This document shows positions 8,651 through 45,518 of a stretch of DNA of 64,000 bases, piece by piece (the first letter of the stretch is position 1; each line of letters opens with the position of its first letter). The notes beneath the pieces are model-generated. The model had not been told where the DNA came from, did not search any database, and worked only from the letters and a program-made list of their open reading frames with translations. Made by a program: the position numbers and the translations under genes. This stretch comes from Alitta virens (lineage: Eukaryota; Annelida; Polychaeta; Phyllodocida; Nereididae), in the NCBI GenBank assembly GCA_932294295.1, contig OW028581.1, positions 15,777,162-15,841,161 on the forward strand. Direction: 5' to 3'.

Positions 8651-9608
8651 ATTATTCATATGGTTCATTATTAGTTAAATGTTCATGTTTGTGAATATCA
8701 TTGGTATACTTATTACACATTAGACATTGCTAAAATTTATCACTAGAATTATGGAGACCCAGATAGCATTCCAAGTCGTATCAACGTCGGCGCGATGTTG
8801 GTCCGCTGTCGGCCACATCAAAATGATGGGGAGAGTTTTAAACTTTGAATACTTAGAGCATTGGAAATATATTGTACGACCATTATGTAAAGATTAATAC
8901 AAACAGTTGAATATGCTATAGAAATTTTGACTTTTAAAACATTATCCTATCTTTAGAAGCAAGAACAGGTCCTGCTTTTCTGTCTGTGGCAGAAGGAATA
9001 TCATAATTGACCAAAAAATACCAACTGATGCTTCAATATTGATTTTATTGTCCTCTTAAATATGTTTTATTAATAAATAAATACATATATCTCATACATG
9101 TGTCTTCATTTATTTCAGATAAATTCACAATGAAAATATCGATGTGCTGCTGGCATGGGGTATTGTTTCTCCTGTGCTACATTACTGAAATAGCCACAGG
9201 TTTGAGAATATTTTAAATAAGAATATTTGACTGTTCAGAAATGTCACCTCACTGATTAATGTACACTATGTTTTAAAGACCAAAATCGGTTAAACTGTGC
9301 TGTAAGCCTAACCTAATTACATATAAGCAGAAGTCAAATCGACCGCCCGATTTAAATTCGAGTTCGACAAAGCTACGACTCATGTATCGATAGATAAATA
9401 CATAAATGCTGTCAAGATTTTGCAAGTTCCACCAACTACCATGTGGCCGACAGCGGGCCAACATCGCGCCGACGTTGATACGACTTGGAATGCTATCTGG
9501 GTCTCCATAGTTCTAGTGATAAGTTTTAGCAATGTCTAATGTGTAATAAGTAAACCAATGATATTCACAAACATGAACATTTAACTAATAATAAACCATA
9601 TGAATAAT
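8651..9608. mobile_element. Element with about 168-bp inverted arms around a gene B first exon
   Basis: 8651-8818 and 9441-9608 are near-perfect reverse complements of each other. The inner parts of the arms carry the 'cccagatagcattccaagtcg' sequence of the small palindromic family found at 11956, 14335, 22467 and 37442. The roughly 620-bp interior has no transposase frame. It holds the putative exon 9119-9199 encoding a signal peptide. It may be a composite MITE or an inverted duplication. I could not confirm a target-site duplication. Confidence 0.7.
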
Positions 9609-12600
9609 GACGAGAAGGAAGAAATATTTTTATCAAAAATTTTACTTAAAGGAGAGACGGCATGTGGTGTCATTATGGTTCATGGATACGAAAAGTATGA
9701 AGAACACATGGGACTTTATTATCTGAGAGCCGAGAAAGTGGATGGATTTGTTTCATACATCTCATCCGCAGAAGACAGAAGTTTTATCATAAAAGCTGAT
9801 GGGGCACAATGGGTGTTGCAAGATAATACTGGTTCAAACGTAGGTGAGTGGTATCCTTGGTAAATTAGGTAATTTACAGAAATTGGTTTTGTAATATTAA
9901 AGGTACCGTATACTGGGGAGAACTTGTCATTTGCTAAAATGTTCGCGGACCATAGAGGCGATACCTTGGACATTCCTGGATATTCGAGTATACTACACAA
10001 TTTGTTATCACTATATAGAGCAATGCTGTGAGGCATGAGTTTGCAAGACAATCTATAAGCTACAGGTTCCCTATTAATTTTAATAATATGCCAATTGATA
10101 TTCAGGACAAACTTTATGCTCACTCCATGTGTAGTTTTAAAATTTACATTAAAAAAACAAACAGATCATTGATAATTATTTAAGCCAATGTTACATTTCA
10201 GACTGTTTTGTGTGTCATAACTTGTAATGCCTTATTTGAATAATTATTTTGTTAGTTACCTGAAAAAAGGCTGTAATAGCAATCCATATACTTCATTGTG
10301 GGCATGGACTCCAGGCACTGACATTCCTGTAATTTTCTACAGTTGGTGTTGATTTGTGGGTGGCCCCTGGGCAGCGATGACATGATCATCTTAGAGGGGT
10401 CACCCTGCTCAATGTTTTGTTTAAAATCACTGTATTTGTACCATGTTTTTTTTAAGTGAGCAAAATAAAATTAATCTGAATCTGAATATTCTTAGGAAAT
10501 CACGTTAACTGTTTGTGTTTTGATTGATGTATATACAGGAGCCATTACCAGAGGTGATGAAAAGTACCCTTATAACAATACCGGAGTCTGGGATATGGAA
10601 GGCACATTTTCTTTCTTTGGACTCAAAGCAGACCCCAAATTCAAAGTTGAGTGTATTGGTAAGTTAAATAAGTCTGTTTCAAAATGTCCGTTACCAGCAC
10701 CATGTTATTTCTGATACTGTATTGTATTATGATATTTGTATGATGCGTATTATGTATGTCATATGGCTGCAAAATAAACATCTCCGTCTGTCTGTCTGTC
10801 TGTTTCTTCCAAAATAATGGTAAAAGATGAAATACATGTGTTAAAAAAATTTTCTCAGACTATTACAAACAGAATTTCGTGGTATTTTGGATATGAAGAA
10901 TCACCTGATGAAATATTCCATGACACAAATTGCACCATGCATTGGTGTAGAGCTAGTGTAAACTGTCATTGCCTAAAGACACATCAACTGAAAATTTATT
11001 TATTTATTTATCTGCCTTTGGCACCAGTTGTTCATTGGGGTTGAGGGTAATCACGGAATTAGGTACACTTGTTATAAATTAATGTTCTGGCTATACAAGC
11101 TGTCCTGTCACTATATCATGAACATTTTTCTTTGTTTAAAAATTATCAAAACAGACCAGACACTATGGACAACAGTTGGAATTTGTCAGGATTACAAAAT
11201 TGATGGCACCGGTAGCGACACTCATGCAACTACTGCACAGCAATGCCTAGAAGAGTGTCGTTCCCATCCGGAGTAAGTTGTTACATCATACTGTTCTTGG
11301 TAACATCTTAACACTTTTAGGGGAAAGATCTTCGAATTTAAAAGTGTACCAGGAAAAAAAAATTGTGTTAATTATATACATTTTGATGCATTTTGTAGTA
11401 TGTCCAGGCAAGAATATCTCAGGAGAAATTTTCGGTCCATTCTTTTTTTTTTTTTTTTTTTTTTAAATTTTATCAGGATGCCTGTATAACATGCTAAATT
11501 GCTAGACATGGGCACCAATGTTGAAATGATGTCGAACCAATTTGGTTCATGTTATCTGGGGATGGTTATTTCACAAGTTATTCACAATATATGTCCATTT
11601 AATGGAGGATGTACAGTTGTGCCCAGAAGTTTACCAACTCCTCAGTACTTTTTCAATGCATGCGTTATGCAAAATATTGTTGCTAAGATGATATTTATGG
11701 CATTACCAAAATCTGTCGTATCATTGAAACAGGCTTCCTTGGCAGATTTTACGTTACGTTGTGTGTCTGGGGCTAGGTACAGCCAGATTCAGAAGATTCA
11801 GATTAATTTTTTTTGCCAAATACTTTTAAATTAGGTATACAATTTTATATTAAAAAAATACACATTATCACTGATTTTGCTGAACTTGGCGGGGTGACCT
11901 CCCAAAGATATTTAATATATCGCTGTCGGGAGCCACCCTATAGACATATATTTTACCCTGATAGCATTCCATATCGTTTCAATGCCAGGGCGATGTAAAA
12001 ACGATGTTGTAACGATGGCGGGCGATGTAGAAATGATGCTGGCCCGATTTGGAAGGCTATCTGGGTTACTGTAAATACAGTTAGTTGCCAGTGGCAAGCA
12101 TATTCACACACTCATAAGAGAAAAATTAACATGACCATTCAAGAAGTGATAATATTAAAAAAAGGGGAAATATAAAAATTTACTAATTTTTATAAAGTAG
12201 GGTTCAAATGCACTATTATAAAAGGTACGTGTCAATAATTACAGATGTAACAATTTTCTTGAACATATTTTCATTTACATAGGGGTAGATAAATGAACTT
12301 TCTTATAGCAACATTATCTTTTTTGGTAGTATTTTCATTTTGTAAACATTTGATACATTTATGGCCCCTATGTAAGTTGAACTGCAGCTGGACATACTAG
12401 CTGTCCTTAGCTATATATATACTAAAGAGCAAAAGATAAGCCTATTTTGATTAATAGGACAGGCAAATTGCAATGGAAAATACTGAGTAGTGTGTAAACT
12501 TTTGAGCACAACTGAAGTTTTCTGGGAGCCACTTAATCTTTCAAAACATCAATTATTTCGTTTTTGTCACATATGTCACTGCCAATATTAATGCACCAAT

Positions 12601-15600
12601 ATTGATCGAAAATAATTTATTTGGCAATTAAACAAGAATACAGCTTTTTTGGCATGATCAATTTAATATTATTACATATATTCTATTAGTGTTAAACTTG
12701 TCAGGATACCTCAAAGAACCTCATTGGGTTGTGTTAGGGGCCACCTTAACTTGATACACTATTAATAATACTAGATAAAAAATAAATAAAAAATAATAGT
12801 ATTAAGTTAGTAAAACAAATTTTATCTATGTTATGCACAAGTTCTTAATTTGTTTTGTCTATATTTCAGTTGTGTTGCAATCTCTACATCCACTGAGGGA
12901 TGCTTCCTCCATAGGAAACACTGCCTGACTCTCCAGGATACTGACGGGAAGGGATTTTATGTAGCAGTAGAGCAAAGTATGTTTTATGGATAGATTTCAA
13001 TATATTGCAGAAATATAGTAGGCAAGATGATTGATTTGATAACCAAAGATAACAGCTTATTTGTCACTTCCTAGAAGAAAAATCCGTCATGGGAATTGTC
13101 CCAAGCTATAAATAAAGTTTAACATGCAAAAAATAATGTTTGAGGAATGTTCTCTGTTTTATTAAATTGGATGTTACCCAGTTTCTTGATAATGATAATT
13201 TAGATAAATGAACTTTCATACTGCACCTGTTTTAAAAATGATATTTGCTCACTAACTATGTTTTAAACACTTTGATCGAAAAAACTTACAGTTCAAGTTC
13301 TGACAAGTTCTGACATGTTCTGACAAGTTCTCAATAAATTAGTTTGTAATTTCAGGGCAGTTTCCAGAGGGTTAACTCTGAAAGCAAGAGTTTTATATTT
13401 CTTTCTAGACTGAGATCGAACAATTAGTTTTGCAATGCTTTGGAGATCTATTGTTTGCTAAGCCTGTTTCTTTTTTACATTGCATATCAAATAGCATACA
13501 ACTTCATTGATGCCTTTATCAATAATTTATTATTTTGTCCTTCAGTGAGCCGCATACAAGAAAACAAGCCTGCATACCAAAGCTCCACAGATATGGAATG
13601 GGATGGCTATCCAGAGAAAGCAGTCGATGGGTTTTTTCTGTCTAACCTTGTAAGATACTTGTCATGTTCCTTGACAAAGAGAGAGACTCATCCCTGGTGG
13701 GCAATGGATCTTGGCAGTCAATATGTTCTCAGAGGAATTGTCATTTTGACTCGATTTGATTGCTGTTGTGAGTTGCTGATTATTTCATATTTGGTATAGT
13801 AAAGTGTAAATATATTCATGTCATCCTAGTGTCTGCTGACAGTGGGTATTCCTCAGCTTACTTGTCAAAGTTCCTTCATCATTGCCAAATATTAAATTTG
13901 TCATGAAAAATTTTGAATTTTTCAAAATGTTACGAACACTGGCTTGGCTGTTATACTCTATTCCATACTCCTACATGACAAGAAACCCCATTTATAGAAT
14001 GGGAATAAGATATACATGGTTGTAATAAGAACTACATTTATTCTATAAAATATGTTTTAGTGCATGGTCATAGTTCATATGGATAATCCAAACTTTCATG
14101 CATGGTCAGAAGGGAGCTTTCAGTGGATTTGTGTGGTCAGGGTCTACAATAAAAAAATAAGATTTCTGAACTGTTTGGTAAATTATAGTTTACTCTGAGT
14201 AGGACAAAAAATTACTGTTATCGGCTTGACACTGGCCTAACATTGCTGGCCGATAGTTAACATTGGAATGATATAAACAACTGCAAACCTAAAGAAGAAT
14301 TACAATAAATAAGGCTTTTCTAAGTTTTCCAAGCTCAGATAGCATTCCAAATCGTATCAACATTGGCGTGATGTCGGGGATGTCAAAACGATGTTGTACT
14401 GACGGCGGCTGATATAGAAACGATGCTGGCCTGATTTGGAATGATATCTGGGAGTGACTTCACACTACGTTTATCATATATATATTCATCATTGTTTTTT
14501 TTAAATTATTTTATTTCATGTTATATTTGATGATATTGATATTTCTTATGTTATAAATTTCAGTTAAAATGTTTTGGGGTGTTACCATTGGAGGCGAATA
14601 TGACTTGGATACAAGTGCCACCTTGGCCCGTCTTGCGGCAAAAGATTTTTCCATGGTCAAGATATGCCAGAAGCTTAAGTACCATTACTCGCCAACAGGG
14701 GTAAGTGGTTTCTTTATTTGTATTCCAAGAGAGTTCAAGTTTTTCCATCTTTAATGGAGAACATGCTAACCCAAAAAATAGCTGTATTGATTTTCCTCTT
14801 CTGTTGTTATATATTAGGTTTTTATTGAAGTAAAAGAATCAAGACAAATTATTTTTTTTCCTGTTTTGCCTTAATGTTAAGAAACTGTTACTTAAAACGC
14901 TTGACAAGTATGAAAGTGTTTCAGTGAATCCTAGAGAATAAATCAATTTTACAGCCAAATTCATTGACTTGGAAACTGGTCTCATAGAGTTGGAAGCTGA
15001 ACTCCATACTAGCTCCAGAGGACGTCATGTGGATCCAGGATTCTCATTGGCTAAGGGGCTGCCTTAACCAATGGGAATCCTGGATTCACATGACATCATC
15101 TGGACTTAAGCTTCTAAGTCTATGAGACTAGTTTCCATGTCAAAGAATTTGGCTGTAAAGTCCACGTTATGCCATGTATTCAAAATTGTGAACAAATGTT
15201 CCTGTTGATCAGTTCACTAAATTAACTATTCACAGAACGAATAATTTGCTTTAAATTGATCAGTGTCTGGGCATAGTCCATAATAACTTTGTCTCAGTGA
15301 TGCTTGCCTGAAGCTCAGCCACATGCAATTTTAAAACAAGTGCACTGCAGTGTCACCCTCGAGGGTACAGTTTCCTATCAGTGGACTATCGTAATGATGA
15401 GACGATGAGCCTTGGAGTCCACATCATGTTGCGCATTAAACCCGTATGTGGGTGGGGTTTTATACTTACTCAGCAGAGATACCAATCACTAGGCTCCAAA
15501 TCATTATCTCATGCCATTAAAATCCAGATAAGATATAACTCATGATGAATACCATAACTGGGAATGAAACCCAGGACCTTGAGTGTGGGATTGGTGGATG

Positions 15601-18600
15601 CCTTAACTGCTAGGCCACCCAATTCTATTACTACTCACTGTTAGCAGAGCTCAGATCTCAGAATTTTCTTAAAAATCTGTAAGTGTCATGTATGTCCTTA
15701 ATAAGTGTTGTGTCAACACCTCACAGCCCAGTAACCTAAGTATGAACAGGGTTTGCTCGTTTTGTCATCTATGGTAAATGAATCAATTATCTTATAGTCT
15801 ACGGATGGCTTATGATATTGAAGGTCTTACAATGAAATTACAGAAACATTAGATGTTTGTTTGCTGAGTTTACTCAATTCTTGTTCTGACAAGCAGGCAA
15901 TTTAGAAAACTTGCCTAAACTAAAAAAAAATGCATCCATTTCTCCTGTATTTTTAAGACGATATTGAGCCTATCGGCTACATAGTTTAACCAATCATTTT
16001 GTTTGACTAGGTAAACTAGCAAACAATGTCCATAATGTGGTCGCTGGGCTGTTAGGTGACAGCGCACAGTGTATATCTACAATTTTCTTATTGCAGAGCC
16101 GGAAAGTTATACCATGCTTGACCTCAGTACTTGTGAAGACTTTTGTCATCTACAAACACAACAGTGATGATGATCTCCCTTTGAGTATTTGTGAAATAGA
16201 AATAATAGCTGATGAAGGTAAGTACTCTGGCATGACAGCAATGCTATGTAGGAAAATGTTAATTCATACATGGCCAATTGTGCCACATGCGTTTTCAATA
16301 CATTTGGATAAACGCATGGTTTTTGCCTCATTATTTTTAGCTTAAAACCATGCGTTTTCCATGCGTTTATCCTTCTCATGGAAAATGCACGTGGCACATT
16401 TGGCCATGTAAGATTGAAACAGAATAATATGACAATTCAAAACCTAACAGAAATAGTTCAATTAAAAATATATTCAACCCCAGTGTATTGACTTATTTTC
16501 AGCGAGCACATTAGGTTTCTTTGAGATGAAAGCTCCGTTGGCATTGGCTGGACCAATGTGCAAAGAATATTTTGGCAATGGCTCTCTGCTTGAAATAACA
16601 ACTGAAGAGGCACTGCAAGCACTTAAAACCTACATCTTTCAAGAAAATATTATGACTGAGTTTAGAATTGCAGATCCATCAGCCAGTGGAATAGTAGATG
16701 AGACTGTTTATGAATATGGCAAGTAAAACTGTTATAAAATACAGCCATGGCCAAAAGTTGCTATACGTTTTTTTATTAATATAATAATTACAATAAAATG
16801 CACAGCAGTTACTCATTTCATCAAGTAAATATCCAAACAAAATTTGTAGATGCAGCATAAAGGACACGCCAAATTTTTTGCCTCCGCTGCGGCTGTATAT
16901 TAAAATTGTCTGGCTAAATTATTATGGCGTTTTATATGAAAACGGATGTCATCGTCAAACAACATTTTATCAGACTTAAACTTGCCTTTTTTTGGTAAAA
17001 AAAAAACAACTCACATTATATGGTAAAAAGATAAGTAAAGACATTTCCAAAAATAAAATAAAAAATACTCACCCCTTATTCATTTATTCATTCAGCTGAC
17101 AGCGGTCTAGGAGGAAAGTGATTTACAGGCTTATCAAATTTTGCTTTGCCTTTAATGGTAACTATGGCTCTTTTTTTAACATCAATCATTTCAGGAGAAA
17201 TTCCAGTCCACGCCACATCAGTATATTTAAAAGCAAAATGTGAGGCATCATCAGCTATGGTGAATCATGATTGTGAGAAGGTCTTTGACTCAACCACGTC
17301 TGCATGGATACCACAGAAAAACATAAATTCATGGATAAAGGTGGAAATAAGTTATGTCTACATGGCCAATTGTGCCACGTGTGTTTATCCAACGCACGTG
17401 GCACATTTGGCCATGTACCCATTTAAGAAGACCATTTTGTGTTGCATAGCTATAGTGGACAAAATATTGTACCCAGTGTGGTTTTATGACTAAAAATCTT
17501 AAGAACATTAACACCAAATTATTTAAACACGGTGAATAAGAATTAAAAAACAAGTAAATAAAAATGGACCTTGTTTACCAGTAATTGAAAAATTATTTTG
17601 TACACATTATGATTCATATTATAATGCAAATTTAGCATTACATAACTTAAAGTGAGTTTATTCAACTTAATGTAATCCAATGATACAATTTATTAAAACT
17701 TTACTAAATGATGTGCATATTTGATATTATTTTTGTAGATAACATTCAGATATTATTACAATGTCTACCGTGTTATGTTAAAACAACACTTCCAAACAAG
17801 CAAAGGCTTCAACACTTTAGACCTGGAATTTTCTGAAGGGGAGACATTCCAGGTATTACCTTTATTTGTTGAATATTCATTTCAGCTATAAAGAAAGATG
17901 TTAAGCTGCTCACTGAGTTCATGGCCAAAGGTGCCACGTGCGTTTTCCATGCGTTTGGATAAACGCATGGTTGTCGCCTCATTATATTTAGGCAAAAACC
18001 ATGCGTTTTCCATGGAAAATGCATGTGCCCGCCCTTTTCGCCATGTATGTTTCAGTATGTTTCAATAACATTATTTTTGGAATTTTGGTATTATCATTTA
18101 CAGCAATGTGTTCTGCTCAGATTATTTTTGTTGATATATTTTGAAACTTTACATCTAGATTTCTGTTAATCCTGGTGAGAAAGACAATCTGTATGATCTC
18201 ATGAATTTCAATGGAATTATGTCTAAATCGCTCAATGTCACCATCACATCAATCTTCAACGATGATGCAAATGGCTTTAGTCAAATTAAGGTGTTTTCAA
18301 GGCCACGTGAGTATAATATTAATATAATATTTAAGTATGTGTGGTAATAGATGAAAGTTTCTACAAACCTATTATGAATTAGCTAGCCAGATTTTGGTTT
18401 TACAATCATTGTGTGATTTAAGTTCTTGTTTATTTAGTATTATTATTTCAATCATAAGAGGGTGTTTAAGCACTTATCACCATGGAGATTTGCATTCATT
18501 TGACAGATTCTGTTTTATTACAGCTGTGGCTAATGAAAGAACTTGCCTATGCAGTTCTTGATTTGTGCAATAGTAATGGATTGTATATGATCATGGCTAC

Positions 18601-21600: not shown

Positions 21601-24600
21601 GGCATCTTATATAGCATTCAAGCAAACTGACTTAATTTCACTAATGAGATTTATGGAAGTGTTGATGTGATGTCACCATGTTATGTCATTGAGAAACTCT
21701 GGCCAATCCCTAAGTTTGTTGTTTGCCCAAATAATGGTTGATTCCAGGGAGGGTTTTGAAGATGGGTTGTCAGCAAGTTTTATGTATTTTGATTTAGTGG
21801 CCCCCTCCTCAGCAATTAGTTTACTGCTTGCTTTGAGCCCACACTTACAGTTCTTACTTCATCAATTAAAATGTTCACTTACTTTAATATTCCATTTACA
21901 TAGAATGAGCTTAAATGACTAATATTGATTAAGTTTCTTACTCCATGGACTTTTAAGGGCGGTAATACCTGCAGTTGCGGTTCAAGCTTCAACGAATTAG
22001 GCGGAGAGGCGCCAGAATGCAACGAATGGTGCAAGGGCAGCTGGGATGAGGGCTGTGGAGGGTTTGCTCATGCGACAGTCAGATACATTGAAGGTTTGTT
22101 TGTATCTGCTAAGTATCAATGCATTTAAAAAACAACTGATTCAATAGTTCTTAATCAATATATATGGTTTAATTGCCATTACAATGAACCGCTTACTAAA
22201 AACAGTAACTTAGAATGTATTCAGTATTTGCTTAGCATTGGCTAATCTTATATGTTGAACAATGTACTACACTACATATATACTAGTATTATTGACTAAA
22301 TTACATATTTTTGGTGTACCATGACATTGACGTTTCAAAAGTTCACGTAACCCTAGATATTACACTGGATATATGCCATGCAATTTACTATATTGCTATA
22401 CTAATACAATGACTATTTGAGAGCTCGCGTAGCAATAAATATGACTTAATTATATACTATGCCATACCCTGATAACATTCTACGTCGGCTTAATGTTGTC
22501 CTGCTGTTGGCCCGATGTCGCCTACATAGAGCCGACGTCAAAACGATGTCAGATACTATCTGGATATTGCAATAAATTTCATGCATACTATACACTATGT
22601 TTGTACAGCCGTGACCAAAGTTTTCGAACACTTTAAAACACTTAAATTTTGGTCTGGCTTCTGGCTTTACATCACTTTTTTTAGAACTATTTTGTTTAGG
22701 GATCATATTTACTGTCTTGAAAATACATTTGCACAATAATCCCAATAAACAAATTAAGATACGGATGGTGGGTCTTCGGGAAGAGCCACATTTTTCACAT
22801 GTTTAGCTTGTGGGAGATGAGTGAAGAGCCACAAGATTCTGGATGAGTTTTACCCTTGTGACCTAAAAACAGTCTAAGTCGTCCATTTTGTTCTCATGCA
22901 AGGTCTTCCTCTTAGATATGTTATTTTTTGTTCTTTGAGCTTTGCAATAATAGACCTTTAATAAGTTATCATGTCTACATGGCCAAATGTGCCACGTGCG
23001 TTTACCATGAGAAGGATAAACGCATGGAAAACGCATGGTGTTTGCCTAATTAAAATGAGGTGAAAACCATGCGTTTCCCATGCGTTTATCCAAACGCATG
23101 GAAAACGCACATAGCACATTTAGCCATGTAGAATTGAGATTGACAGAGAGACAGATAGACAAAAGGGAGGGACAAACTGTCCAAAATGCAGGCCATCACA
23201 ATATCGTAGGCAATATACATGGCCAAGAGTTATAAAAGCTGTGATGCAAGATCAAGAAAGCGCCATAGTCACCATCTGTAGTGAGTGTATGAAAACTTAT
23301 GGCCACGGCTGTATATGCTATAAGAAATTATTTTTGCTGCACTACAACATAACAACAACATTTCAAAAGCTCGGGTACAATAATTACTGCTTTAACACTG
23401 AATATGTACTATCTAATGCCATCTTACATTTTTCTGTGGTAACTTCTTATACATGTGTATATTTCTTTTTATTTCACAGCTCCCTCTTCATATTGCACTT
23501 CAGTCACTTCAAAATTACCTTACACAGAATCAGCAGAATTGATTGAGTTCCAGAGGCAGTTGTGTGAGAAAGCCTTGCCATTTGTATGTGTTCGAGATGT
23601 AGGTTAGTACCACTGAAGTATTATGTGGGATTCTACATCGATAAATTATGCCTCTCCAAAATGTAGTATGTGATTTGAGATGTATCCCTAAGCTTTTTCT
23701 TTAATTACAGATTTATCGCTATGTTGCAGCATGAAATAATTTGAAATTATGTTTTTGTCTTACATTTCAATTGCTACAAGATACGTTATTATGAAAATGA
23801 CCAGTAAACTTTCTCTCTCTCTTTCTTTACATTATTATTAGAAATATTGATGTTTTATTATAAATTTGTTAATTTCACATAACAGATCACTGTCTCAGCT
23901 TGCCATGCAAGAACAATGGAGTCTGTTCATCATCAAGATTCCATTTCATGTGCACTTGCCAACCTGGATTTACTGGACAAAATTGCGAAACTGGTGAGAA
24001 GCTACCTTGAACAGTTGAAACCTGTTCCACGAAGATTTTAGCTAATGGGGGGAAAAAAGTACCACAAGAGGTCACTGACACCGTAGCAGATAAGTATTGT
24101 TTGATGACGTCATATATATATATATATGAATATATATATATATATTGTAACATCATTAACGTAACAAGTAAGTAGTGACATCATCTTATTGTCATTTCAT
24201 ATGCTACGGTTGTAGTGCCCCCTGTCAGATCTATCTTGCAGCTTGGTCAGCTTTATCATTGTTTATTCAATGTCGAGTAATTCAAACCAATACTTTCTTT
24301 GTTATAAAGCTGAACATTTATCCAAATTGGTGATGTGGGAACAGTCATATTAGACAAAGAAAAAATTTATAAAAATAGTGTAAGAACATTTAAAGAGTTT
24401 CAGTATTTCTAAGGTGTGTATTGTCTAAAAACAAACTGTAGCCAGTACCGTAACGGAGGGTATTATCCTAAAATGTTAAGAACAAAATAACAAGTTGTTA
24501 ACATTTTAATGTGAATGTCGAAAATACCCGCCCTGTCGATAATACCCTCCGTTACGGTATATACTTTATGTATTTATTGTTCCGTCACTAGCATCAGATT

Positions 24601-27600
24601 ATTTATGTTCTTATCTCTTGTGCACTGTAGTGCTTGTCAAAAATCAACCAGAAACTTAATATATCGTTCAAAATTCCATGCGAAGCTTTATCTCGGATGA
24701 CATGTTAGATTGGCTTAAGGTCAGCCACATTATTTTGTGTTATAACAGATATTGATGAATGTGCACTATCTACGTGTCTGAATGGAGCCACCTGCATCGA
24801 CCAAGCGAATGGTTTCTCTTGTGACTGTGCAGTGGGGTATACTGGCGATAATTGTGAAACAGGTTAGTCTTTTTTTGTTACAGTACTCTTTCCACAGATA
24901 TTACTAAAGTGTATCGATTTTTGGCGAAAGAAAGTTATAAACTTAAAGTTCCTCTGCCACAAGTGGGGATCATCTGGAACAACAACATTCAGCATAGTAA
25001 ATGGTTTGAAAACAAGTAGTGACGTTTTAATATTTACAAAAATGTTTCATTCCAATAAGTATTGATATTTTATATTTCAGTTAATTTCTGAATTCAGTTA
25101 ATTTCAGGAAATGCCAATGGCATTTTGTACATATACTGGCCATGTACACACTGCAACAAGAAATTCAATATAAAAACTATTCTGTATGCATAGGCCTACA
25201 TTTAGTTTTATTATACCTTTTAGATTTTGATTTATGCCAACAAAATCCATGCTCCAATGGTGCAACCTGCATTGATGAATTGACCTCCTTTAAATGTCAG
25301 TGCCCACCAGGATATACTGGGGAATATTGTGAAACAGGTAAATTTCTTTTATTTATTTAAGATTCTATTTAAAATTTAATTAACTTATCTATGAACTCAC
25401 TTGGGCGTGTTCAGGTATGCCTCATATGGCCATCAATGACAGCAGGTTTCAGTGACGTAGAGACTCCAGAGGACGTCATGTGAAACTAGGACTCATATTG
25501 GCTCAAGTAATCTATCAACCAATGGGAGTCATAGATTCACGTGACGTCCTCTAGTGTCAAGTTTCCAAATCTATCAAATCTTCTGTAAAGCTCTCTTATG
25601 AAAGTGAGTAATATTCAATCTTAAGTGAAAAAGATATACAATGTTAATGTAATAACACTTTAAAGAGTGATACATTTTAAAATGATACTGTATCTTATTT
25701 GAGAAGTTGTTATGTGGCAATTCATGTTTCCTCACTCTGCGTCATCACTTTATTTAGAATTGAATGAATGCAGCAGTTTTCCCTGTGGAACATTTGGTGA
25801 TTGTGTTGATGAGGTGGATAACCACACCTGTAATTGTCATGAGGGATACATAGGTTCACACTGTGAGATAGGTATGTTTCAACTGTTGGTTATGTATACT
25901 TTGACAAGTTCCAACCTTGGAAGAAAGTTCCAACATATGAGTTTGCGAGGAACCTTCCGAATCCATCCGGTATGCTCTTTAACTTTCGAACAATTTTTTG
26001 TGATAATCTAGTTTTCTCTGCGATGTGTACTTTTCATAATTTTGTGCCGATTATTTATAGTATAATAAATGTATAATATTTCAACAACTTTATCAATTGT
26101 ATCTATCAGGAATCGCTCCAGAAATAATGTTAGGCTGCGATGCTAAAACAGCGAAAAATCAACTTACTAAATTTTTAGCATAATAGTGAACATCATGAAA
26201 TACTTATACTGTTATACTCCACCAAATGACCTTTCTATTGCTCTAAGGATGAATATAATTAACGTAAATGTTACTTTTTGTAATATACTTTTCTTGCAAA
26301 ATACAAGCAATCAAGCAAATCATATATCTCTGAAGAAGCCTAATGATTGTTATATCACTCTAAAGCTTCAAACTTTCCAGGGATGCTCAGATATTATACT
26401 GAGGATGATGCTAAACATGTACACCCGTCACTGTGTGAGAACTGTCTGGCAAGGGAGCTATTCGACCCCATTTCAGACTTCCAATGGTATCAGACAGGGT
26501 GGTGTCATCTCCCAATGTTATTTAGCATATAGATGAGATGTTTTGTTTTGTTTTACCAGATGTTGATGAATGCAACAGTCAACCATGCCTGCACGCGGGC
26601 ACATGTCACAACACGTTCAACTCTTACTTCTGTGAGTGCCAAGCTGGACTGTATGAGGGTACTCATTGTGAGAATGGTAAGGTCATCAATATAATTTTAG
26701 ATAGGATAAATTTGAGTTGCAATCCAACTTGAAAGTACCTATGTCACATTTCTGTCATTGCAGAAGTCGACAACTGTTTTACGGATATTTGTGTGAATAA
26801 CGGCACTTGCGAAAGTGTTCTCAACGGGCATGTTTGTCACTGTGCACCTGGTTTTACTGGATTTGAATGTGAATCAGGTACCTACATTATTTTTTAATAG
26901 CAATTTATGAAATGAATTTATATTCTTCTCTATTGGCTCACTTTTAATCTGTGTTGTTAAGTCTTTCATACTTCTTTCGTACTTGCAGAAATAAATGAAT
27001 GCGCAAGCTTACCGTGTAAAAATGGAGCCACTTGTTATGATGTGATAGACGACTTTGATTGTGAATGCGGAATGGCTTTTACTGGAGAAACCTGTTCTGA
27101 ATGTAAGTAATGGTCATGATATGCAGTAATAAGCAACCGTAACACTCCATTCCACCTTTTCATAGTACTTAGGGCTACTTAGGAGGTATGAAACCATAGA
27201 AAAAGTTAGTAAACTCCCACCTTAGTGAAAACAGTGGCATCAATTGTCTTGCATAATGAATGCAATCAAACACAAACAAGTTTCAGTGACACTTTTAATC
27301 AAACCTGAAATATTTTTGTTATCTTCGTCGTTATTTAGGAATTAAAGTTTTTGACAAACTTGTGCCAGCCAACCTGCCATGTGAATTATTGATCCTAGCA
27401 AATGTTGACTCTGCAAAGATACATTTGATTTCTTGTGTTTATTGTATGTCAAAGCACAGTATTAGAAACAGTCATAGTTGACTTGTGATTACTTTATAAT
27501 CTGAACTGTTGAACAACACGCGACAACATCATTGAACTACCAGATAGCAACACCGTTCCATCATTGGCCATCAGCGACTGTCATCAGGCCAATGAGAAAG

Positions 27601-30600
27601 GCTATCTCGGTAGTCGTCCTTCATATTTGGGGTCTATAATAATTGATCGACAGAAAAAGTAAGATATATATGTCAAACATATTGGCCTTAATTAAAACCA
27701 TATCATGACAAAAACTAAAAAAAATTGTTGTTTTATTGTGAATGCATTTGGTCATTAGATACCGGCAACCCAGCATCCTGGACAAGTTGGACCAGATGGA
27801 GTGAATGTTCGAGTTCTTGTGGAGAAGGATTAAAATATCGATCTAGAAATTGTTCAGGACTTATGCCAGATATGGAACCATACTGTGGCAATGGAGCTTA
27901 CAACGAGGCAGCTCTATGCAACTCTGGACTATGTCCGCCAAGTAAGTAATCAACGACCACAATTTGGTAAGCACTTTGGTTGGCGTTTACCATTCACAAA
28001 TTCAAGGGACACTATGCTGTATTTTAACATCCTTGAAAAGTCTGAGCCGTGACGTTGCAAGGGTGGTAACACTTCGGGTAAAGACCTCCACCCCACTGAC
28101 CAACACAGGGCTCTGGATCCCACTGAGCAACACAGGGCTCTGGATCCCACTGAGCAACACAGGGCTCTGGATCCAACTGACCAACACAGGGCTCTGGATC
28201 CCACTGAGCAACACAGGGCTCTGGATCCAACTGACCAACACAGGGCTCTGGATCCCACTGAGCAACACAGGGCTCTGGATCCAACTGACCAACACAGGGC
28301 TCTGGATCCCACTGACCAACACAGGGCTCTGGATCCCACTGAGCAACACAGGGTTCTGGATCTATAAAGAAGTTAATGACATAATCAGTAATTTTGTCAA
28401 TGAAATGCAAATATTCCGTTATAGGGCAATACAGGTAAACAATAACCAAAATATTCTTAATATTACTTTCAGTTGATGGCAATTGGGGTGATTGGAAGTC
28501 CTCCAAAGAATGTCCCAACACTTGTGGCATGTCGTCGATGGTGATGTACCGCGAATGCGACAAACCGAGACCTCAGAATGGAGGCAAGCCATGCACTGGA
28601 GAAAATGCAACAACTCTTGCTTGTCTTAGTTACTGTGTTGGTAAGTGTTTTGTACCTAAAATATGGTAAAGCTTTGAACTACTACTAATATCGCTTTGAA
28701 TGTGTCATTTTATATGACTTGTTTTAACCATATATATGTTTTAAAACATCTTCAAGCAGTATGGGGTTTCATATTTACTATTTCCAAATTTCCAAATATA
28801 ACATGTCTCCAAATTTAACATGAATGTATTTCATATGGTGTTTAAAAAGAATCACGGCGCTTAATGCTTATCCGGTGTCATTAGTTGCAGTGTTATGTGA
28901 ATTTAAATTTAAATGTCTTTACTTCTCTTCCTAGGTGAGCATCCCATCTGTGGTGAATGGAAAGAGTGGACAGAATGCAAGGGATCATGTGATTTTGCCA
29001 GCCAGTCAAGGACTAGATTTTGTGCTCAGAACATTACAGAAAGCAATGGAGTTGTTACAGATATTACTTTTGAGGAAGAGGAAATCCAGAGTTGTACGCC
29101 AACTGGATGCTCTGGGTCAAGTATGATTTGCACGGGTTTTATATATTACCCAGTACAATGATGCATTTATTAAAACCATACTGTGACCATAGATAATCGC
29201 TGGTTCATTAGATATGCTGATGTCACCCTAAGGTGGACCACTTTCAGTACATATTTTAATTTGCATAAATGTTTTTGAATATGTCTGAATAATATTTTGG
29301 TGTGACTGTAGGATATATATGTTTGTAACAGCTTTCTTTTGTTATCCCAGATCTTCAATGCTACACGTGTGACTACAATTTTGATGGATCAAGTCTACCC
29401 ACAGAATGCTCATCCTCTGTTCAGTGTGGTGGTTCACAAGACCAATGTGTGTTTGAATATAAACCAGGGGCTGGTGGATCAGTCACCTCAAAATCAAAGT
29501 GAGTTGGTTACACTTATGCTATGGGTCTTAAGCTTAACCAGCTGATATTACTGCCTAGCAGAGGCACACTTGGAGGTAAAACTTTGAGTCCACACCATAT
29601 TGCACATTTACCCATAGGTGGGGCCCTTGAACGTCCTGGGCCTTCTTATATATATACTCCAGAGGACATCATGCAAATCCAGAACTCCCATTGGCTATGG
29701 CAGTCTCTCAGCCAATTGAAATCTTAGATTCACATGACTTCTCGCGAGTATATTTCCATGTTTGTGAAATTAGCTGTAAATGACATTGAGTTTATTGTAT
29801 CCTTGTATTTCAAGTAAATTACCTTACCATGGTACACGCTGCTAAACATAATATACCTTACTAACTCTTTTACTCGTCCTAGCATAGTCACCAAATTTCA
29901 TACATTGTCAATTTAACATTGCGATCAAACAACTTCCGCGTGACCCATAGCTAAAAAGTGACCATTGCCCAGTTTGGGTATCAACCCTGGGAAAGCTGAC
30001 TAGTGGCTGTGGTACCTTAACTATTAGGCTGACTGCTCACTGATCAAATGCAGTGAATATTGTCAAGGTTGAATATTGAATACCTTATTTCAGATGTGGA
30101 TCAGTTCATGAGTGTGACTTTTTTCATCCGGGCTCTGCTTGCTCTAGCCTACTCTCGCTGGGGTATGTATCGCTTGTCATACCAGTTGAATAACATGTTT
30201 TCTTTGACGAATTTATAGCAGTAGACAATGATCGTTGAAAATTGAACTTGATATAATGAAATTTTTGTATTTAATTTCTTTACGGTTTGGGTAGTGTGGC
30301 CTGACCAAACCAAAGAGTGTTTTGAACTAAATTTTCACATTTGTAAACTTAAATCACAAATTCAGTAACTCTTTTTGCTGACATTGATTTTTAGCATAAC
30401 CAGATAGAAAAATCAGGTGATAAAGAATAATAGTTCATTTCATTCAACATAAAAAAGTCATGCACAATAATTGATTGCAGATCTTCAGCAAGTTCAGAAG
30501 AAATCCTTGCAGCGCTGATGAATCTGAATGACTCGTGCACCGTATGCTGCAGCTCACCTCTGTGCAATAAGGGTTTTCATATTCAAACTGCACCATATTT

Positions 30601-30616
30601 TAGAAATGGATTTTGA
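9130..30616 (+). CDS. Gene B: large mosaic secreted protein (PAN, F5/8C, WSC, EGF x7, TSP1 x3, Ly6)
   Basis: Exons: 9130-9199, about 9600/9650-9843, 10539-10658, 11155-11272, 12870-12976, 13546-13767, 14564-14700, 16097-16217, 16503-16718, 17195-17340, 17739-17852, 18159-18306, 19043-19255, 19958-20188, 21363-21517, 21958-22093, 23480-23602, 23886-23993, 24749-24862, 25224-25337, 25758-25871, 26560-26676, 26764-26877, 26989-27102, 27759-27941, 28473-28640, 28935-29120, 29351-29498, 30094-30162, 30481-30616. Most introns are phase 1, the usual state for shuffled extracellular modules. The first exon encodes [20 protein letters not shown], a good signal peptide. No membrane segment follows and the C-terminus lacks gene A's hydrophobic tail, so this form should be secreted. 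The exact start of exon 2 and the choice of first exon are unresolved. I know of no described gene with this exact domain order. A lectin-like matrix or recognition role is inference only. Confidence 0.85.
9600..10658 (+). other. Gene B module 1: unrecognised cysteine-bounded domain (two exons)
   Basis: Exons ending 9843 and covering 10539-10658 encode about 100 residues between one early Cys ([12 protein letters not shown]) and one late Cys (FKVECIG), rich in aromatic residues ([25 protein letters not shown]). The pattern suggests a small all-beta module; I cannot name the family. An acceptor for the first exon is unclear: the frame is open from 9600, directly at the edge of the inverted-repeat element, and 'acttaaag|ga' near 9650 would keep phase 1. 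Confidence 0.55.
10000..10495 (+). mobile_element. Possible LINE 3' tail inside gene B intron
   Basis: The stretch ends 'gcaaaataaaattaatctgaatctgaat', an AATAAA-type signal followed by a short direct repeat, as in the 3' ends of CR1/L2-like LINEs. Upstream sequence has only broken frames. The exon at 10539 begins 40 bases later. Assignment rests on the tail alone. Confidence 0.4.
11155..12976 (+). other. Gene B PAN/apple domain 1 (two exons)
   Basis: Exons 11155-11272 and 12870-12976 encode an apple/PAN fold: ICQDYKIDG, then [28 protein letters not shown] and GFYVAVEQ. The C-x-E-x-C helix and the aromatic last strand fit PAN domains, which bind proteins or carbohydrates. The intron is phase 2 inside the domain; both outer borders are phase 1. 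Confidence 0.8.
11956..12065. repeat. Palindromic MITE, CCCAGATAGC family, copy in gene B intron
   Basis: Starts ccctgatagcattccatatcg and ends with a diverged reverse complement, cccgatttggaaggctatctggg. About 110 bases, the same family as at 14335, 22467, 37442 and the arms at 8758 and 9441. Confidence 0.75.
14335..14453. repeat. Palindromic MITE, CCCAGATAGC family
   Basis: Starts ctcagatagcattccaaatcg and ends gatttggaatgatatctggga. The two halves are inverted copies with a 'cgatgttgtactgacggcgg' centre. Confidence 0.75.
14950..15160. repeat. Inverted-repeat element, TACAGCCAAATTC family, copy 1
   Basis: The outer arms 'ttacagccaaattcattgact' and 'caaagaatttggctgtaaa' are inverted, and inner arms around 'ccaggattctcattggct' and 'ccaatgggaatcctgg' also pair. 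Other copies lie at 18821, about 25455 and about 29655. Confidence 0.8.
15370..15632 (-). repeat. tRNA-derived SINE, family A, best copy
   Basis: On the minus strand the head reads GTGGCCTAGCAGTTAAGGCA (A-box-like). After about 25 bases come GGTCCTGGGTTTCATTCC (B-box-like) and a family body shared with 2690-2935, 29560-30040 and 47650-47810. This is the layout of a tRNA-derived SINE. Confidence 0.7.
15714..16075. repeat. Dispersed inverted-terminus element, family D
   Basis: Begins 'caacacctcacagcccag' and ends 'gctgggctgttaggtgacag', so the termini are inverted. The interior matches 51238-51562 over most of its length. It stops about 20 bases before the exon at 16097. Confidence 0.65.
16267..16410. 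repeat. Palindromic MITE, TACATGGCCAA family, copy 2
   Basis: Same arms and centre as 7174-7328, including 'tttttgcctcattat...tagct' at the axis. Confidence 0.85.
17359..17417. repeat. Minimal TACATGGCCAA palindrome (59 bp) next to a donor site
   Basis: Only the outer arms remain: tacatggccaattgtgccacg, a short centre, and cacgtggcacatttggccatgta. It begins 18 bases after the exon border at 17340, so a transcript could fold a stable hairpin beside the 5' splice site. Confidence 0.8.
17919..18047. repeat. Palindromic MITE, TACATGGCCAA family, copy 4
   Basis: Diverged copy with 'catggccaaaggtgccacgtgcg' on the left and 'ttttcgccatgta' on the right. Confidence 0.75.
18821..19010. repeat. Inverted-repeat element, TACAGCCAAATTC family, copy 2
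   Basis: Arms 'tacagccaaattcatagacttggaaacc' and 'ggtttccaactctatgaagttggctgt' pair as inverted repeats. It ends 33 bases before the PAN exon at 19043. Confidence 0.8.
19043..20188 (+). other. Gene B PAN/apple-like domains 2 and 3
   Basis: Exons 19043-19255 and 19958-20188 each encode one module in a single exon with phase-1 borders. The first reads [36 protein letters not shown]. The second reads [41 protein letters not shown]. The C-x3-C-x(4-5)-C core and the closing aromatic or charged strand fit apple/PAN domains. Confidence 0.75.
19480..19905 (-). repeat. Dispersed repeat cluster including SINE family C
   Basis: 19490-19615 carries 'gccccctgt'-type and 'gacaccgtagca' blocks that recur inverted at 24050-24230. 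19620-19905 matches the minus strand of 48368-48660 block by block: 'ggcaggcttgttcaag', 'ctccctg.ggagtat', 'tatagccaagta', 'acctgggtggagtgg'. The copy at 48.4 kb has a tRNA-like head. Confidence 0.6.
20704..20846. repeat. Palindromic MITE, TACATGGCCAA family, copy 5
   Basis: Full-length copy with the usual arms and 'tttttgcctcattattattagct' axis, very close to copies 1 and 2. Confidence 0.85.
20900..21340. other. Intron stretch with open frame of unclear nature
   Basis: A 127-codon plus-strand frame (20954-21337) is open, but it has no domain or splice signals in phase with gene B. The 'cctagtacc..cacagagccctgtgttgg' start shares words with the 27-bp minisatellite at 28.1 kb. I read it as repeat-derived rather than coding. 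Confidence 0.35.
21363..22093 (+). other. Gene B WSC domain
   Basis: Exons 21363-21517 and 21958-22093 encode [40 protein letters not shown], which is the WSC cysteine plan. WSC domains are thought to bind carbohydrate and occur in polycystin-1, fungal wall sensors and many invertebrate mosaics. The internal intron is phase 0 with an AAG acceptor ('ttttaag|ggc'); outer borders are phase 1. Confidence 0.85.
22467..22565. repeat. Palindromic MITE, CCCAGATAGC family (diverged)
   Basis: Starts ccctgataacattctacgtcgg and ends gtcagatactatctggata; the interior keeps 'ctgttggcccgatgtcg'. Confidence 0.6.
22976..23130. repeat. Palindromic MITE, TACATGGCCAA family, copy 6
   Basis: Full-length, with the inner arms in the opposite order to copy 1 ('gagaaggataaacgcatgg' on the left). 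This indicates insertion in the other orientation. Confidence 0.85.
23480..23602 (+). other. Gene B cysteine-bearing linker exon
   Basis: A 41-codon, phase 1-1 exon with three cysteines ([24 protein letters not shown]) between WSC and EGF 1. Acceptor 'tatttcacag' and donor 'gatgtag|gttag' are clear. I do not recognise a domain; it looks like a helical spacer that may carry disulphides. Confidence 0.6.
24050..24235. repeat. Dispersed element with (TA)n centre
   Basis: 'caagaggtcactgacaccgtagca' on the left and 'atgctacggttgtagtgccccctgtca' on the right recur inverted at 19485-19615. A (TA)n microsatellite at 24111-24150 sits in the middle. Confidence 0.55.
25455..25592. repeat. Inverted-repeat element, TACAGCCAAATTC family, internally shortened
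   Basis: The inner arms 'ctccagaggacgtcatgtg' and 'cacgtgacgtcctctag' pair as inverted repeats; the outer arm survives as 'tttccaaatctatcaaatcttctgtaaag'. Confidence 0.65.
26380..26540 (+). pseudogene. Reverse-transcriptase fragment of a LINE in gene B intron
   Basis: A plus-strand frame encodes [13 protein letters not shown] then [14 protein letters not shown], the highly conserved block of non-LTR reverse transcriptases just before the catalytic YxDD region. After VIS the frame shifts by one base to PMLFSI and hits a stop, so the copy is dead. It ends about 20 bases before the EGF exon at 26560. Confidence 0.8.
27759..29120 (+). other. Gene B: three TSP1 repeats
   Basis: Exons 27759-27941, 28473-28640 and 28935-29120 each encode a thrombospondin type-1 repeat: [17 protein letters not shown], then [16 protein letters not shown], then [18 protein letters not shown]. 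The first has the stacked W-x2-W-x2-W of glycosaminoglycan-binding repeats. The third is the closest relative of gene A's TSP1 exon, with matching phase-1 borders. Confidence 0.9.
28090..28366. repeat. 27-bp minisatellite (about 10 units) in gene B intron
   Basis: The unit 'cactgagcaacacagggctctggatcc' is repeated head to tail with only 'gagc'/'gacc' and 'ccc'/'cca' variants. Because 27 is divisible by three, several frames stay open and give 9-residue repeat ORFs on both strands, which I regard as non-coding. The array starts after 'ggtggtaacacttcgggtaaagacctc', a block also found at about 33190-33225 beside a single unit-like sequence. Confidence 0.9.
29351..30616 (+). other. Gene B C-terminal Ly6/LU domain without GPI tail
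   Basis: Exons 29351-29498, 30094-30162 and 30481-30616 encode an LU domain: [59 protein letters not shown]. Exon borders and phases equal those of gene A. The protein stops 16 residues after the last Cys (TAPYFRNGF, then two TGA codons), where gene A has a hydrophobic GPI signal. A shifted frame just past the stop is hydrophobic, so the anchor may have been lost by a frameshift. Confidence 0.88.
29560..30040 (-). repeat. SINE family A copy split by a nested inverted-repeat element
   Basis: 29565-29650 has 'tgagtccacaccatattgcacatttacccataggtgggg' and 29878-30035 has 'agcatagtcacc', 'caatttaac' and a tRNA-like minus-strand head (attgcccagtttgggtatcaaccctgggaaag...ttaactattaggc). Between them, about 29655-29780, lies a TACAGCCAAATTC-family element ('ctccagaggacatcatg' to 'aaattagctgtaaa'). 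The nesting gives relative ages. Confidence 0.65.
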
Positions 30617-37177: not shown

Positions 37178-38012
37178 TGGTTGAAAATGCCAAGTGCATT
37201 GATGCTTTGCCAGAAGCATGTAGATCACAGATTCCCCTCAGACCAGAGTTCTGCTACACTTCCTACAACTACGACCTCTGCTGCGCAACTTGTAGAGGAC
37301 TGTCAGAGGGCAGTGACCCAGGTCAGTAAAAGTGCACTAAAACTGTACAAAGTTACTATTCAAGTGGGAAATTTACTTCACAAAATAGAATTAGTCGACG
37401 AGAAAGGGTTAATGGCTTAATCCATAATTGTATCCTTCTATCCCAGATAGCATTTCAAATCAAACCAGCGTCATTTCTATATTGGCCGCTGTCGGTACAA
37501 CATCATTTTGACATTGCCGATATTGAAACGACTTGGAATGCTATATGGAATTATCATTCGTATTAAAACTTTGGGCTAACCCTGATGACCCCAATTTCAT
37601 CCATTGTTACACCCCCGCTGTCAAACAATATATTTGCATGACTTTTTCAACTTTTTCCTAATTTCCAGAATGTCCATATGGCTATCGCAACACTTTGATT
37701 GAAGCAGACGATAAGAGCATGTGGACATGTAACCAATATACCCAGAAATACGGAAGATGGCGCTGCAATGAGCCTGCTTTCAGAAGTACGTGCTGCAGCA
37801 CATGCAAAGGTTTTGCAGGATGGAAGAGAAAGAGAACAAGCTTTTTTGCTAATGACAGCAGAACAAATTATTATGAGATACAATGTGATCATATTCCTTT
37901 TTGTTGGGAAGAATTTTTTCTAGAGACGGCAGTTTCTTATTTTGCTGAATGGAAAATCTCCTGTTTGTCTTATAATGAGGCCGGGCTGGGTGGTTTATGT
38001 TTCCACTTATGA
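37178..38012 (+). CDS. Two 3' exons encoding PLAC/ShK-like cysteine repeats
   Basis: Exons 37178-37321 and 37669-38012 (phase-1 entry, phase-1 intron, stop TGA at 38010). Exon 1 has C-x8-C-x10-C-x8-CC-x2-C (KCIDALPEAC ... FCYTSYNYDLCCATC). Exon 2 starts with a second repeat, CPYGYRN ... TCNQYTQKYGRWRC ... CCSTC. This is the PLAC (protease and lacunin) or ShK plan, usually found at the C-terminus of TSP1-rich matrix proteins such as papilin and ADAMTS-like proteins. No upstream exon of its own is seen before 30.6 kb. The phase-1 start is compatible with splicing from any gene B TSP1 exon, so this may be an alternative end of gene B or the end of another gene. The last 20 codons lie in the 1,940-bp tandem duplication. 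The tail after CCSTC is unlike any domain I know, and a donor-like 'caaag|gttttg' offers another exon end. Confidence 0.7.
37442..37548. repeat. Palindromic MITE, CCCAGATAGC family, in PLAC-gene intron
   Basis: Starts cccagatagcatttcaaatc and ends gaaacgacttggaatgctatatgg. Confidence 0.7.
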
Positions 38013-44800: not shown

Positions 44801-45518
44801 GAACAGGTTATGACATCATCAACTGCACTCAATGACTTGATTGTATGCTAACATCATTAAACAATGGTTGCACCGTCCTGCTGATGGCTATTCATGTTAG
44901 TATTTAGATGTTTTTTGTGCAAACAGAGGAAGCTGTCAATGACCATGCCCAAATAATTTGTTGATTTCATCTGGTATGCCCATAATAAACAAACTTACTT
45001 CGGCAACAACAAGTGCAAGACCCTTTCTACTTCCTTCGTTTGCTTTACATAATCAGCAGTCCTTGCCTCAACCTGTTTCTCCAAATCTTCTGCGTAAAGG
45101 TCCATTCGAACTCTGAGATTTTCCAGAATGTTACCTTTGTCTCCTTTTCTGAAAAAATCATCCAGAGATTTTAGTTTGTAGAGCCAATTTGACAGGTTTC
45201 AGTTTCATGATCTTTCTGTTAATTCATGATCTTTCTGTTAATTCATGATCTCAAAAATAGATTCGTCAGTTTAGTATCTTCGATAGAATGTTCAATTCAT
45301 ACACTGATAAGCACCGCAACAGCAACATTCAAATTCCCATGTGGTTCATCAGCTTAACTGAAGTATTTATGTATGTATTTATGTATGTAAGGATGTATTT
45401 ATGTATGTATGTATCTATCTATCTATTTATATATTTATCTATCTATCTATGTATCTATCTATCTATGTAATATCTATCTATCGATCTATCTAACTACCTA
45501 TCTATCTATCTGTCTATC

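Follow-up and report, generated by a model that had tools for sequence, protein, structure and literature searches.

The 64,000-nucleotide stretch of the genome of the annelid Alitta virens analysed here (the window; GenBank assembly GCA_932294295.1, contig OW028581.1, referred to below as C9, positions 15,777,162 to 15,841,161 of the forward strand) carries at 9130..30616 of its forward strand one 30-exon gene model for a large extracellular mosaic protein of about twenty modules, in which the sequence signal of a C-type lectin-like domain (CTLD) is divided between exons 9 and 17 by a block of four other domains. The gene belongs to a family of six related loci on one chromosome, the window gene and its sister copies P1, P2, P3, P5 and P6, and we consider it quite probable that its product is a surface or secreted recognition protein whose CTLD is split by this block. 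The predicted order from the N-terminus is a signal peptide, an N-terminal domain, a PAN domain, an F-type-lectin-like domain, the N-terminal half of the CTLD, the block (DUF7402, PAN, PAN and WSC), the C-terminal half of the CTLD, seven EGF domains, three TSP1 domains and a Ly6/LU-like domain. A preliminary description, made from the letters of the window, had proposed a gene of about 30 exons with matching frames and phases that joins PAN, F5/8C, WSC, seven EGF, three TSP1 and Ly6. The 30 exons in one frame were recovered, with the chain recurring in P2, P3 and P6, and the order of the named families and the seven EGF and three TSP_1 stretches (the latter by Pfam) were found as described; however, that description had missed the N-terminal domain, DUF7402, the split CTLD and two further PAN domains, three PAN units being found where one had been claimed.

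The putative CTLD halves lie in exon 9 (16503..16718, followed by a GC splice donor) and exon 17 (23480..23602), both on the forward strand, as are all other exons of the gene. They are separated by exons 10-16, 1143 nt encoding the 381 amino acids of the four-domain block, with phase 1 at both ends. The joined exons of P6 matched the Pfam Lectin_C model at 27.2 bits (E 6.7e-6, profile positions 2-107), exceeding the cut-off of 22.6; exon 9 of this copy alone covered positions 2-53 with 21.1 bits, and exon 17 added about 6 bits. The joined pairs of P2 (18.4 bits, E 0.0039), P1 (16.7 bits, E 0.012) and P3 (16.0 bits, E 0.021) each gave one continuous alignment reaching profile position 106. None of five wrong joins made from P2 pieces (exon 9 with exon 16, 11 or 10, and exon 17 with exon 10 or 15) matched Lectin_C, and exon 9 alone and exon 17 alone of the window copy matched no Pfam family at E <= 10. 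When a profile of five joined pairs was compared with PDB, 31 distinct sequences were found at E <= 1; judged by name, 30 of them are CTLD proteins, and several chains were aligned through both halves, such as 8k8h_A (4-117, E 0.0012) and 1wt9_A (4-114, E 0.014).

Together, exons 9 and 17 hold one and three cysteines, equal in number to the four of a CTLD's two disulfides, in the window copy, P1, P2, P3 and P6. Across the domains of the first four of these copies, odd cysteine counts were found in 10 of 72 domain-by-copy cells, and eight of the ten belong to exon 9 (one cysteine in 4/4 copies) and exon 17 (three in 4/4), the others being the EGF domain of exon 22 and the LU domain, both of P2. 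P6 also has one cysteine in exon 9 and three in exon 17, and these two exons are the only ones with odd counts in every copy counted. At the position of the CTLD motif WIGL in exon 9, P6 reads WIGN (in ENIWIGN, a CTLD-like WIG core), and the other copies read FRIAD (window), FQIAD (P2), FRIAY (P3) and FWIAD (P1). The break between the halves falls after the WIG core in P6. The long loop region of CTLDs lies after WIGL. This region carries the calcium and ligand sites, according to an excerpt of PMC7618208, and an excerpt of PMC514892 describes fish antifreeze-like CTLD genes as having an intron downstream of WIGL. With the break following WIGL and both edges of the block in phase 1, the simplest history would be that exons of phase 1 were shuffled into an intron of a CTLD. 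The EPN, QPD and WND motifs, given in the same excerpt of PMC7618208 as the calcium and sugar motifs of C-type lectins, were not seen when the joined CTLD sequences were read by eye. Since exons 10-16 keep its halves 381 amino acids apart, the domain is classed as a split variant rather than as an ordinary, contiguous CTLD.

Several results weigh against reading exons 9 and 17 as one CTLD. The window pair is the weakest of the copies (12.4 bits, E 0.27, with its best stretch oddly placed), and the pairs of P1, P2 and P3 stay below the Lectin_C cut-off. The reversed join, exon 17 before exon 9, scores nearly as high in total (17.8 bits in P2, 25.9 bits in P6), and because each half in that join is aligned to its own section of the profile, these scores indicate two complementary halves rather than their co-folding. 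In the PDB comparison, one of the 31 sequences (2ob5) is not a CTLD by name, and the lowest E-values (2.7e-5 for Lymphocyte antigen 75) are sums of weak matches to the many CTLDs of one chain, the single stretch of that protein running through both halves having 12.2 bits and an independent E-value of 1.9. The best chain with a single CTLD, 3ubu_A (4.3e-4), was aligned mainly to exon 9, weaker results came from a profile of three pairs (13 rows, best E 0.027), and exon 9 alone found similar chains (seven rows, best E 0.059). Competing models also appear, as exon 17 of P6 alone matched DUF7921 (E 0.011, 16.5 bits, under the cut-off) and the joined exons of P1 matched a glycosyl hydrolase 31 model at E 0.014, about equal to Lectin_C. 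An AlphaFold prediction of exon 9 alone gave two helices at low confidence (predicted local distance difference test, pLDDT, 55.9). Overall, the sequence makes a good case for a CTLD at exon 9 and a moderate one at exon 17, and among the copies P6 offers the strongest.

The gene model was built by hand from stop-free stretches, splice-site scans and phases, and was then compared with the paralogues. It has 4254 nt and encodes 1417 amino acids, with consistent phases, phase 1 at all domain borders and a sole in-frame stop, the terminal codon at 30614-30616. Each of the 29 introns has an AG acceptor, paired with a GT donor in 28 cases; the intron after exon 9 has a GC donor (TATG/GCAAGT; 16719-16720), and since GT stands at the homologous place in P1, P2 and P3, it is read as a GC-AG intron of the window copy and not as the mark of a broken gene. 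The start of exon 4, earlier placed at 11176, was set at 11155 by homology with P2 and P3. Two other models were discarded: a first one made by dynamic programming, which started at 9600 and contained false small exons, was replaced by the hand model, and one without exon 9 (1338 amino acids, phase also kept) was dropped since this exon is conserved in P1, P2, P3 and P6. Exons 27-30 of P3, the 3' end of the preceding tandem copy, occupy 1329..4026 of the forward strand of the window (converted from C9:15778490-15781187), and because exon 30 of P3 ends there, the upstream gene boundary was marked at about 4026. A minisatellite with a 27-base unit in 10 copies (28092-28362) lies in the intron that separates exon 25 from exon 26.

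A total of 671 Mb of the genome, in 23 pieces, was searched for related loci, and parts of each locus were read. With exons 1-9 as query, at least 34 matches were obtained at E <= 0.01, of which 30 fall within an array on C9, all on one strand, to which the window gene belongs; exons 10-17 gave at least 34 matches, 32 of them within the array, and exons 25-30 at least 117, many of TSP1 type elsewhere. The array holds P1 (about 15.682-15.715 Mb), P2 (15.719-15.743 Mb), P3 (15.753-15.781 Mb, its last exons within the window), the window gene and the decayed P5 (15.880-15.914 Mb; C9:15879903-15914279), and the divergent P6 lies on the minus strand of the same chromosome at 29.340-29.366 Mb, 13.5 Mb away. 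P2 and P3 have all 29 of exons 2-30 in the same order as the window gene, with exon 1 identified in neither. In P6, tblastn recovered 28 of these 29 exons, exons 23 and 24 being assigned by position, and did not find exon 26. Reverse-transcriptase-like open frames, recognised by eye, lie at about 29343-29344.5 kb of C9, in the P6 intron expected to hold exon 26. P1 has 18/18 of exons 5-22 in the DNA read, where exon 4 was not found, with further matches to exons 25-28 and 30. The decay of P5 is seen in in-frame stops in exons 7, 15 and 19 and in the loss of one of the three exon 17 cysteines; exons 9 and 16 were not found in this copy. The recurrence of exons 2-30 in P2, P3 (29/29 each) and P6 (28/29) supports the exon chain and the gene ends, and on this sequence basis it is taken as confirmed that 9130..30616 holds a single gene and not two, its exon chain being a model that the paralogues support. 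In P1-P3 the phase expected for each exon guided the search for splice sites, which makes the phase agreement of these copies partly a matter of construction; for every exon, sites of that phase existed without stops in between.

Over exons 2-30, amino acid identity is 57% between the window copy and P2, 54% between the window copy and P3 and 53% between P2 and P3, and the NG86 ratios of nonsynonymous to synonymous substitution rates (dN/dS) are 0.18, 0.14 and 0.16, respectively, which are only rough since dS is 1.8-2.5, near saturation. Both measures were computed with exon 4 as it stood before its start was moved to 11155. The EGF exon 19 (24749-24862) departs from this pattern, with 94-95% DNA identity among the window copy, P2 and P3 and a dS of 0.18-0.24, whereas the other units for which dS was computable exceed 1.1. 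The likeness drops to background immediately in the flanking introns, and a genome search with a near copy of the exon gave at least four places, all in the array, the P1 copy at 73%. Gene conversion on the scale of one exon, or strong constraint at the DNA level, would appear to account for this.

Outside the CTLD, most of the domains could be assigned with Pfam or PDB matches. Exon 1 (9130..9199) encodes the ATG and a signal-peptide-like leader with a hydrophobic core by Kyte-Doolittle values. The N-terminal domain (9652..10658; exon 2, 9652-9843, and exon 3, 10539-10658), whose exons are also present in P2, P3, P6 and the decayed P5, had no Pfam match at E <= 10, and its profile had no PDB match at E <= 1. 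The first PAN domain (11155..12976; exon 4, 11155-11272, and exon 5, 12870-12976) matched PAN_3 at E 7.9e-4 and 19.7 bits, under the cut-off of 21.1. The second and third PAN domains (19043..20188; exon 13, 19043-19255, and exon 14, 19958-20188) matched PAN_1 over the cut-off of 21.4 (E 1.5e-4, 22.0 bits); in P3, PAN_4 was matched over the cut-off (E 3.5e-8), and the PAN rows of P2 were under it. DUF7402, a galactose-binding-like domain and the first of the four between the CTLD halves (17195..18306; exons 10, 17195-17340, 11, 17739-17852, and 12, 18159-18306), was matched by Pfam over its full profile length, slightly below the cut-off of 27, in the window copy (E 1.2e-5, 25.9 bits) and P2 (6.3e-6, 26.8 bits); P3 had no DUF7402 row at E <= 0.1, F5_F8_type_C giving two stretches instead. 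The region of exons 10-17 found nothing in PDB at E <= 0.1. The last domain of the block, WSC (21363..22093; exon 15, 21363-21517, and exon 16, 21958-22093), was matched over the whole Pfam profile (1-82/82, E 3.1e-10, 40.6 bits) and has eight cysteines in 4/4 copies. The seven EGF domains (23886..27102) occupy one exon each, all of phase 1-1: exons 18 (23886-23993), 19 (given above), 20 (25224-25337), 21 (25758-25871), 22 (26560-26676), 23 (26764-26877) and 24 (26989-27102), with seven Pfam stretches at E 1.1e-41. The three TSP1 domains (27759..29120; exons 25, 27759-27941, 26, 28473-28640, and 27, 28935-29120) gave three TSP_1 stretches at E 9.3e-10. Six cysteines were counted in each EGF and TSP1 unit, save for the EGF domain of exon 22 in P2, which has seven.

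The F-type-lectin-like domain, an F5/8C-type unit, is encoded by exons 6 (13546-13767), 7 (14564-14700) and 8 (16097-16217), together 13546..16217. In the window copy, F5_F8_type_C_2 was matched at E 7.5e-6 with 26.9 bits against a cut-off of 27.8, and F5/8C exceeded the cut-off in P2 and P3. Thus, of the Pfam families named in the preliminary description, WSC, EGF, TSP1 and the PAN of exons 13-14 exceeded their cut-offs, whereas F5/8C and the first PAN remained just under them in the window copy. Compared with PDB, exons 6-8 matched FBP32 (3cqo, 6.9e-12), a lectin (1k12, 4.4e-6) and a fucolectin-related protein (2j22, 0.0024), matches that identify the first F5/8 unit as an F-type lectin domain. 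The fucose motif of F-type lectins is H-X24-R-X-D-X4-(R/K), as given in an excerpt of PMC5712786. In the window copy this motif is broken, with the histidine replaced by leucine (SCSL), the arginine and aspartate kept (RFD) and the last basic residue replaced by methionine, and SCSL, with leucine for the key histidine, is also present in P1, P2, P3, P5 and P6. Of the cation motif h2DGx, in which x is small and hydrophilic, the window copy (AVDGF) has h2DG, with phenylalanine as x. Because the fucose motif is lost and EPN and WND are absent, classical sugar binding by the F-type lectin domain and the CTLD is disfavoured, and the sugar-binding-type N-terminal half suggested earlier is not to be assumed.

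The C-terminal domain (29351..30616; exons 28, 29351-29498, 29, 30094-30162, and 30, 30481-30616) was assigned as Ly6/LU-like from its motif and cysteine count. An LxCYxC start and a CCxxxxCN end, the Ly6/LU motif, are present in the window copy, P2, P3 and P6, and the window copy has 12 cysteines. Profile matches speak against a firm assignment: the Pfam rows of the window copy were weak (a CD59 model at E 0.29 and a three-finger model at E 0.85), the LU pieces of P2, P3 and P6 had no Pfam match at E <= 0.1, and a profile of the four copies found no Ly6 row in PDB, the sole row at E <= 5 being NFAP (E 0.13). The C-terminal LU domain proposed in the preliminary description is therefore upheld by its motif and not by a statistically supported profile match. 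P2, P3 and P6 end in hydrophobic tails resembling a glycosylphosphatidylinositol (GPI) signal by Kyte-Doolittle values, followed by charged residues in P2; the best 15-residue means are 2.28 (P2), 2.71 (P3) and 2.51 (P6), against -0.55 in the window copy, which ends without an in-frame hydrophobic tail. A hydrophobic stretch is present in another frame just downstream (from about 30604). A frameshift was considered as the cause of the missing tail and set aside, as DNA alignment does not establish the homology of this downstream frame.

The results can also be read in other ways, of which the most serious concerns function. The protein could have a structural role, as a matrix or adhesive component, and not act as a recognition receptor; the GPI-like copies would then be incidental and the window copy a secreted matrix component. 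The window copy, with no in-frame hydrophobic tail, would suit this role, and EGF and TSP1 are common matrix modules; however, GPI-signal-like tails occur in 3/3 of the sister copies whose C-terminus was read (P2, P3 and P6; not P1), and we hold a matrix role to be unlikely, though it deserves more weight than any other alternative. By contrast, the division of the span into two or more genes, for example with exons 1-17 as a lectin-like gene and exons 18-30 as a gene for EGF, TSP1 and LU, a possibility already named in the preliminary description, appears highly improbable, given that all 30 exons are in phase, that P2, P3 and P6 show an identical order and that GPI-like tails occur only at the end in these copies.

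Two further alternatives bear on the CTLD itself. Alternative splicing might join exon 9 directly to exon 17 in some transcripts, giving an ordinary CTLD, while others include the four-domain block. As the block has phase 1 at both edges, such joining would keep the frame in the window model; this alternative, which we rate as rather improbable, would nevertheless be compatible with a CTLD split by the block. Slightly more doubtful still is that exons 9 and 17 are remnants of two separate truncated CTLDs, kept as linkers and neither folding as a CTLD. The weak Lectin_C scores of the window copy, P1, P2 and P3 would fit such remnants, as would the rapid change of exon 9, which is among the fastest-changing units (34-45% amino acid identity among the window copy, P2 and P3, dN/dS 0.32-0.35), although its dN/dS is well below 1. 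Remnants are harder to reconcile with the one and three cysteines that together equal the four of a CTLD, with the complementarity of the halves on the Lectin_C profile and with the retention of both exons in a copy as divergent as P6. Moreover, searches beside the two exons found no trace of the missing halves (the exon 17 type after exon 9, or the exon 9 type before exon 17): Lectin_C had no matches in the three forward frames of the window introns after exon 9 and before exon 17, and the best tblastn match among the window copy, P1, P2, P3 and P6 had an E of 0.067 in a one-intron database. A point in favour of remnants, and against a single split domain, is a tblastn match of the exon 17 type (E 0.004 with one intron as database) in the P3 intron just after exon 16, at about C9:15769643-15769756, which is unexplained and may be chance or a remnant.

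If a single CTLD is split by the block, its halves would fold together around the standard disulfides, the cysteine of exon 9 pairing with the last cysteine of exon 17 and so bridging the block. The four domains would leave and re-enter the fold at the site of the long ligand-binding loop, the CTLD serving as a pedestal that projects a multi-domain arm; we lean moderately towards this arrangement, with the whole architecture kept through several gene duplications. The rod of EGF and TSP1 domains may hold the binding-type domains, as a head, away from the cell surface, and the head could bind a partner on cells, matrix or microbes, presumably without using the classical sites for fucose or for calcium-dependent sugar binding. 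With a GPI-signal-like tail added after the LU domain in P2, P3 and P6, several copies are probably surface-anchored, and the window copy may be secreted, or may owe an anchor to an exon not seen here. The suggestion of a modular recognition or matrix protein made in the preliminary description remains a sensible class, within which the sequence does not decide between adhesion, matrix and immune recognition.

Elsewhere in the window, open stretches at about 44140-57189 of the minus strand resemble, by eye, a receptor guanylate cyclase with receptor-type extracellular, kinase-like and cyclase parts, and a long open frame at 61136-64000 of the plus strand resembles, also by eye, the family B DNA polymerase of a Maverick/Polinton-type element. 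Two near-identical open stretches about 2 kb apart (37852-38247 and 39888-40259, minus strand) represent a local duplication.

Neither this architecture nor a CTLD split by whole domains was described among the matches listed in a search of open-licence PMC full text. Residues 1-780 of the model without exon 9 had no match at E <= 0.001 among 2634 candidates in a protein database, a result that says little since the animal content of that database is uncertain, and the novelty of the architecture is provisional. The long loop of CTLDs has been described as conformationally flexible and highly variable, perhaps an independent part for adaptive evolution (excerpt of PMC7618208). A loop in the form of a conserved, 381-residue block of four domains would, if true, push this idea to its limit, and would mean that exon shuffling acts inside a domain as well as between domains. 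The six loci, one decayed and one distant and divergent, would form a within-genome series in which a mosaic architecture is kept while its sequence diverges.

Known proteins share parts of this organization. The polycystin-1/REJ family combines WSC and CTLD in one large extracellular part, as here, although its members are polytopic membrane proteins with PKD/REJ regions. GPI-anchored Ly6/uPAR proteins have the LxCYxC start, the CCxxxxCN end and a hydrophobic C-terminal tail like that of P2, P3 and P6; however, the LU domain described here has 12 cysteines, ends a mosaic of 1400 residues and has no statistically supported match to a Ly6 model. Ordinary CTLDs resemble the present one in the WIG core (exon 9 of P6), the four cysteines found in exons 9 and 17 and the intron downstream of WIGL, and differ from it in that about 381 residues, in four domains, stand here between the halves, at the place expected of the long loop region, and in the absence here of EPN and WND. 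The mosaic F-type lectins of the Drosophila CG9095/furrowed type also join an F-type lectin domain and a CTLD in one protein, with two of the basic residues of the fucose triad non-basic and a CTLD unlikely to bind carbohydrate, as described in an excerpt of PMC5712786. In contrast to the annelid protein, they have complement control domains and a predicted transmembrane domain, and PAN, WSC, EGF, TSP1, LU or a split CTLD are not named with them in that excerpt. Finally, the N-terminal domain of IgAse, a bacterial CTLD-like core (excerpt of PMC12237041), is likewise a CTLD-type core enlarged by additions, but there the additions are irregular segments that double the domain, whereas in the mosaic protein of Alitta virens they would be four recognisable domains.

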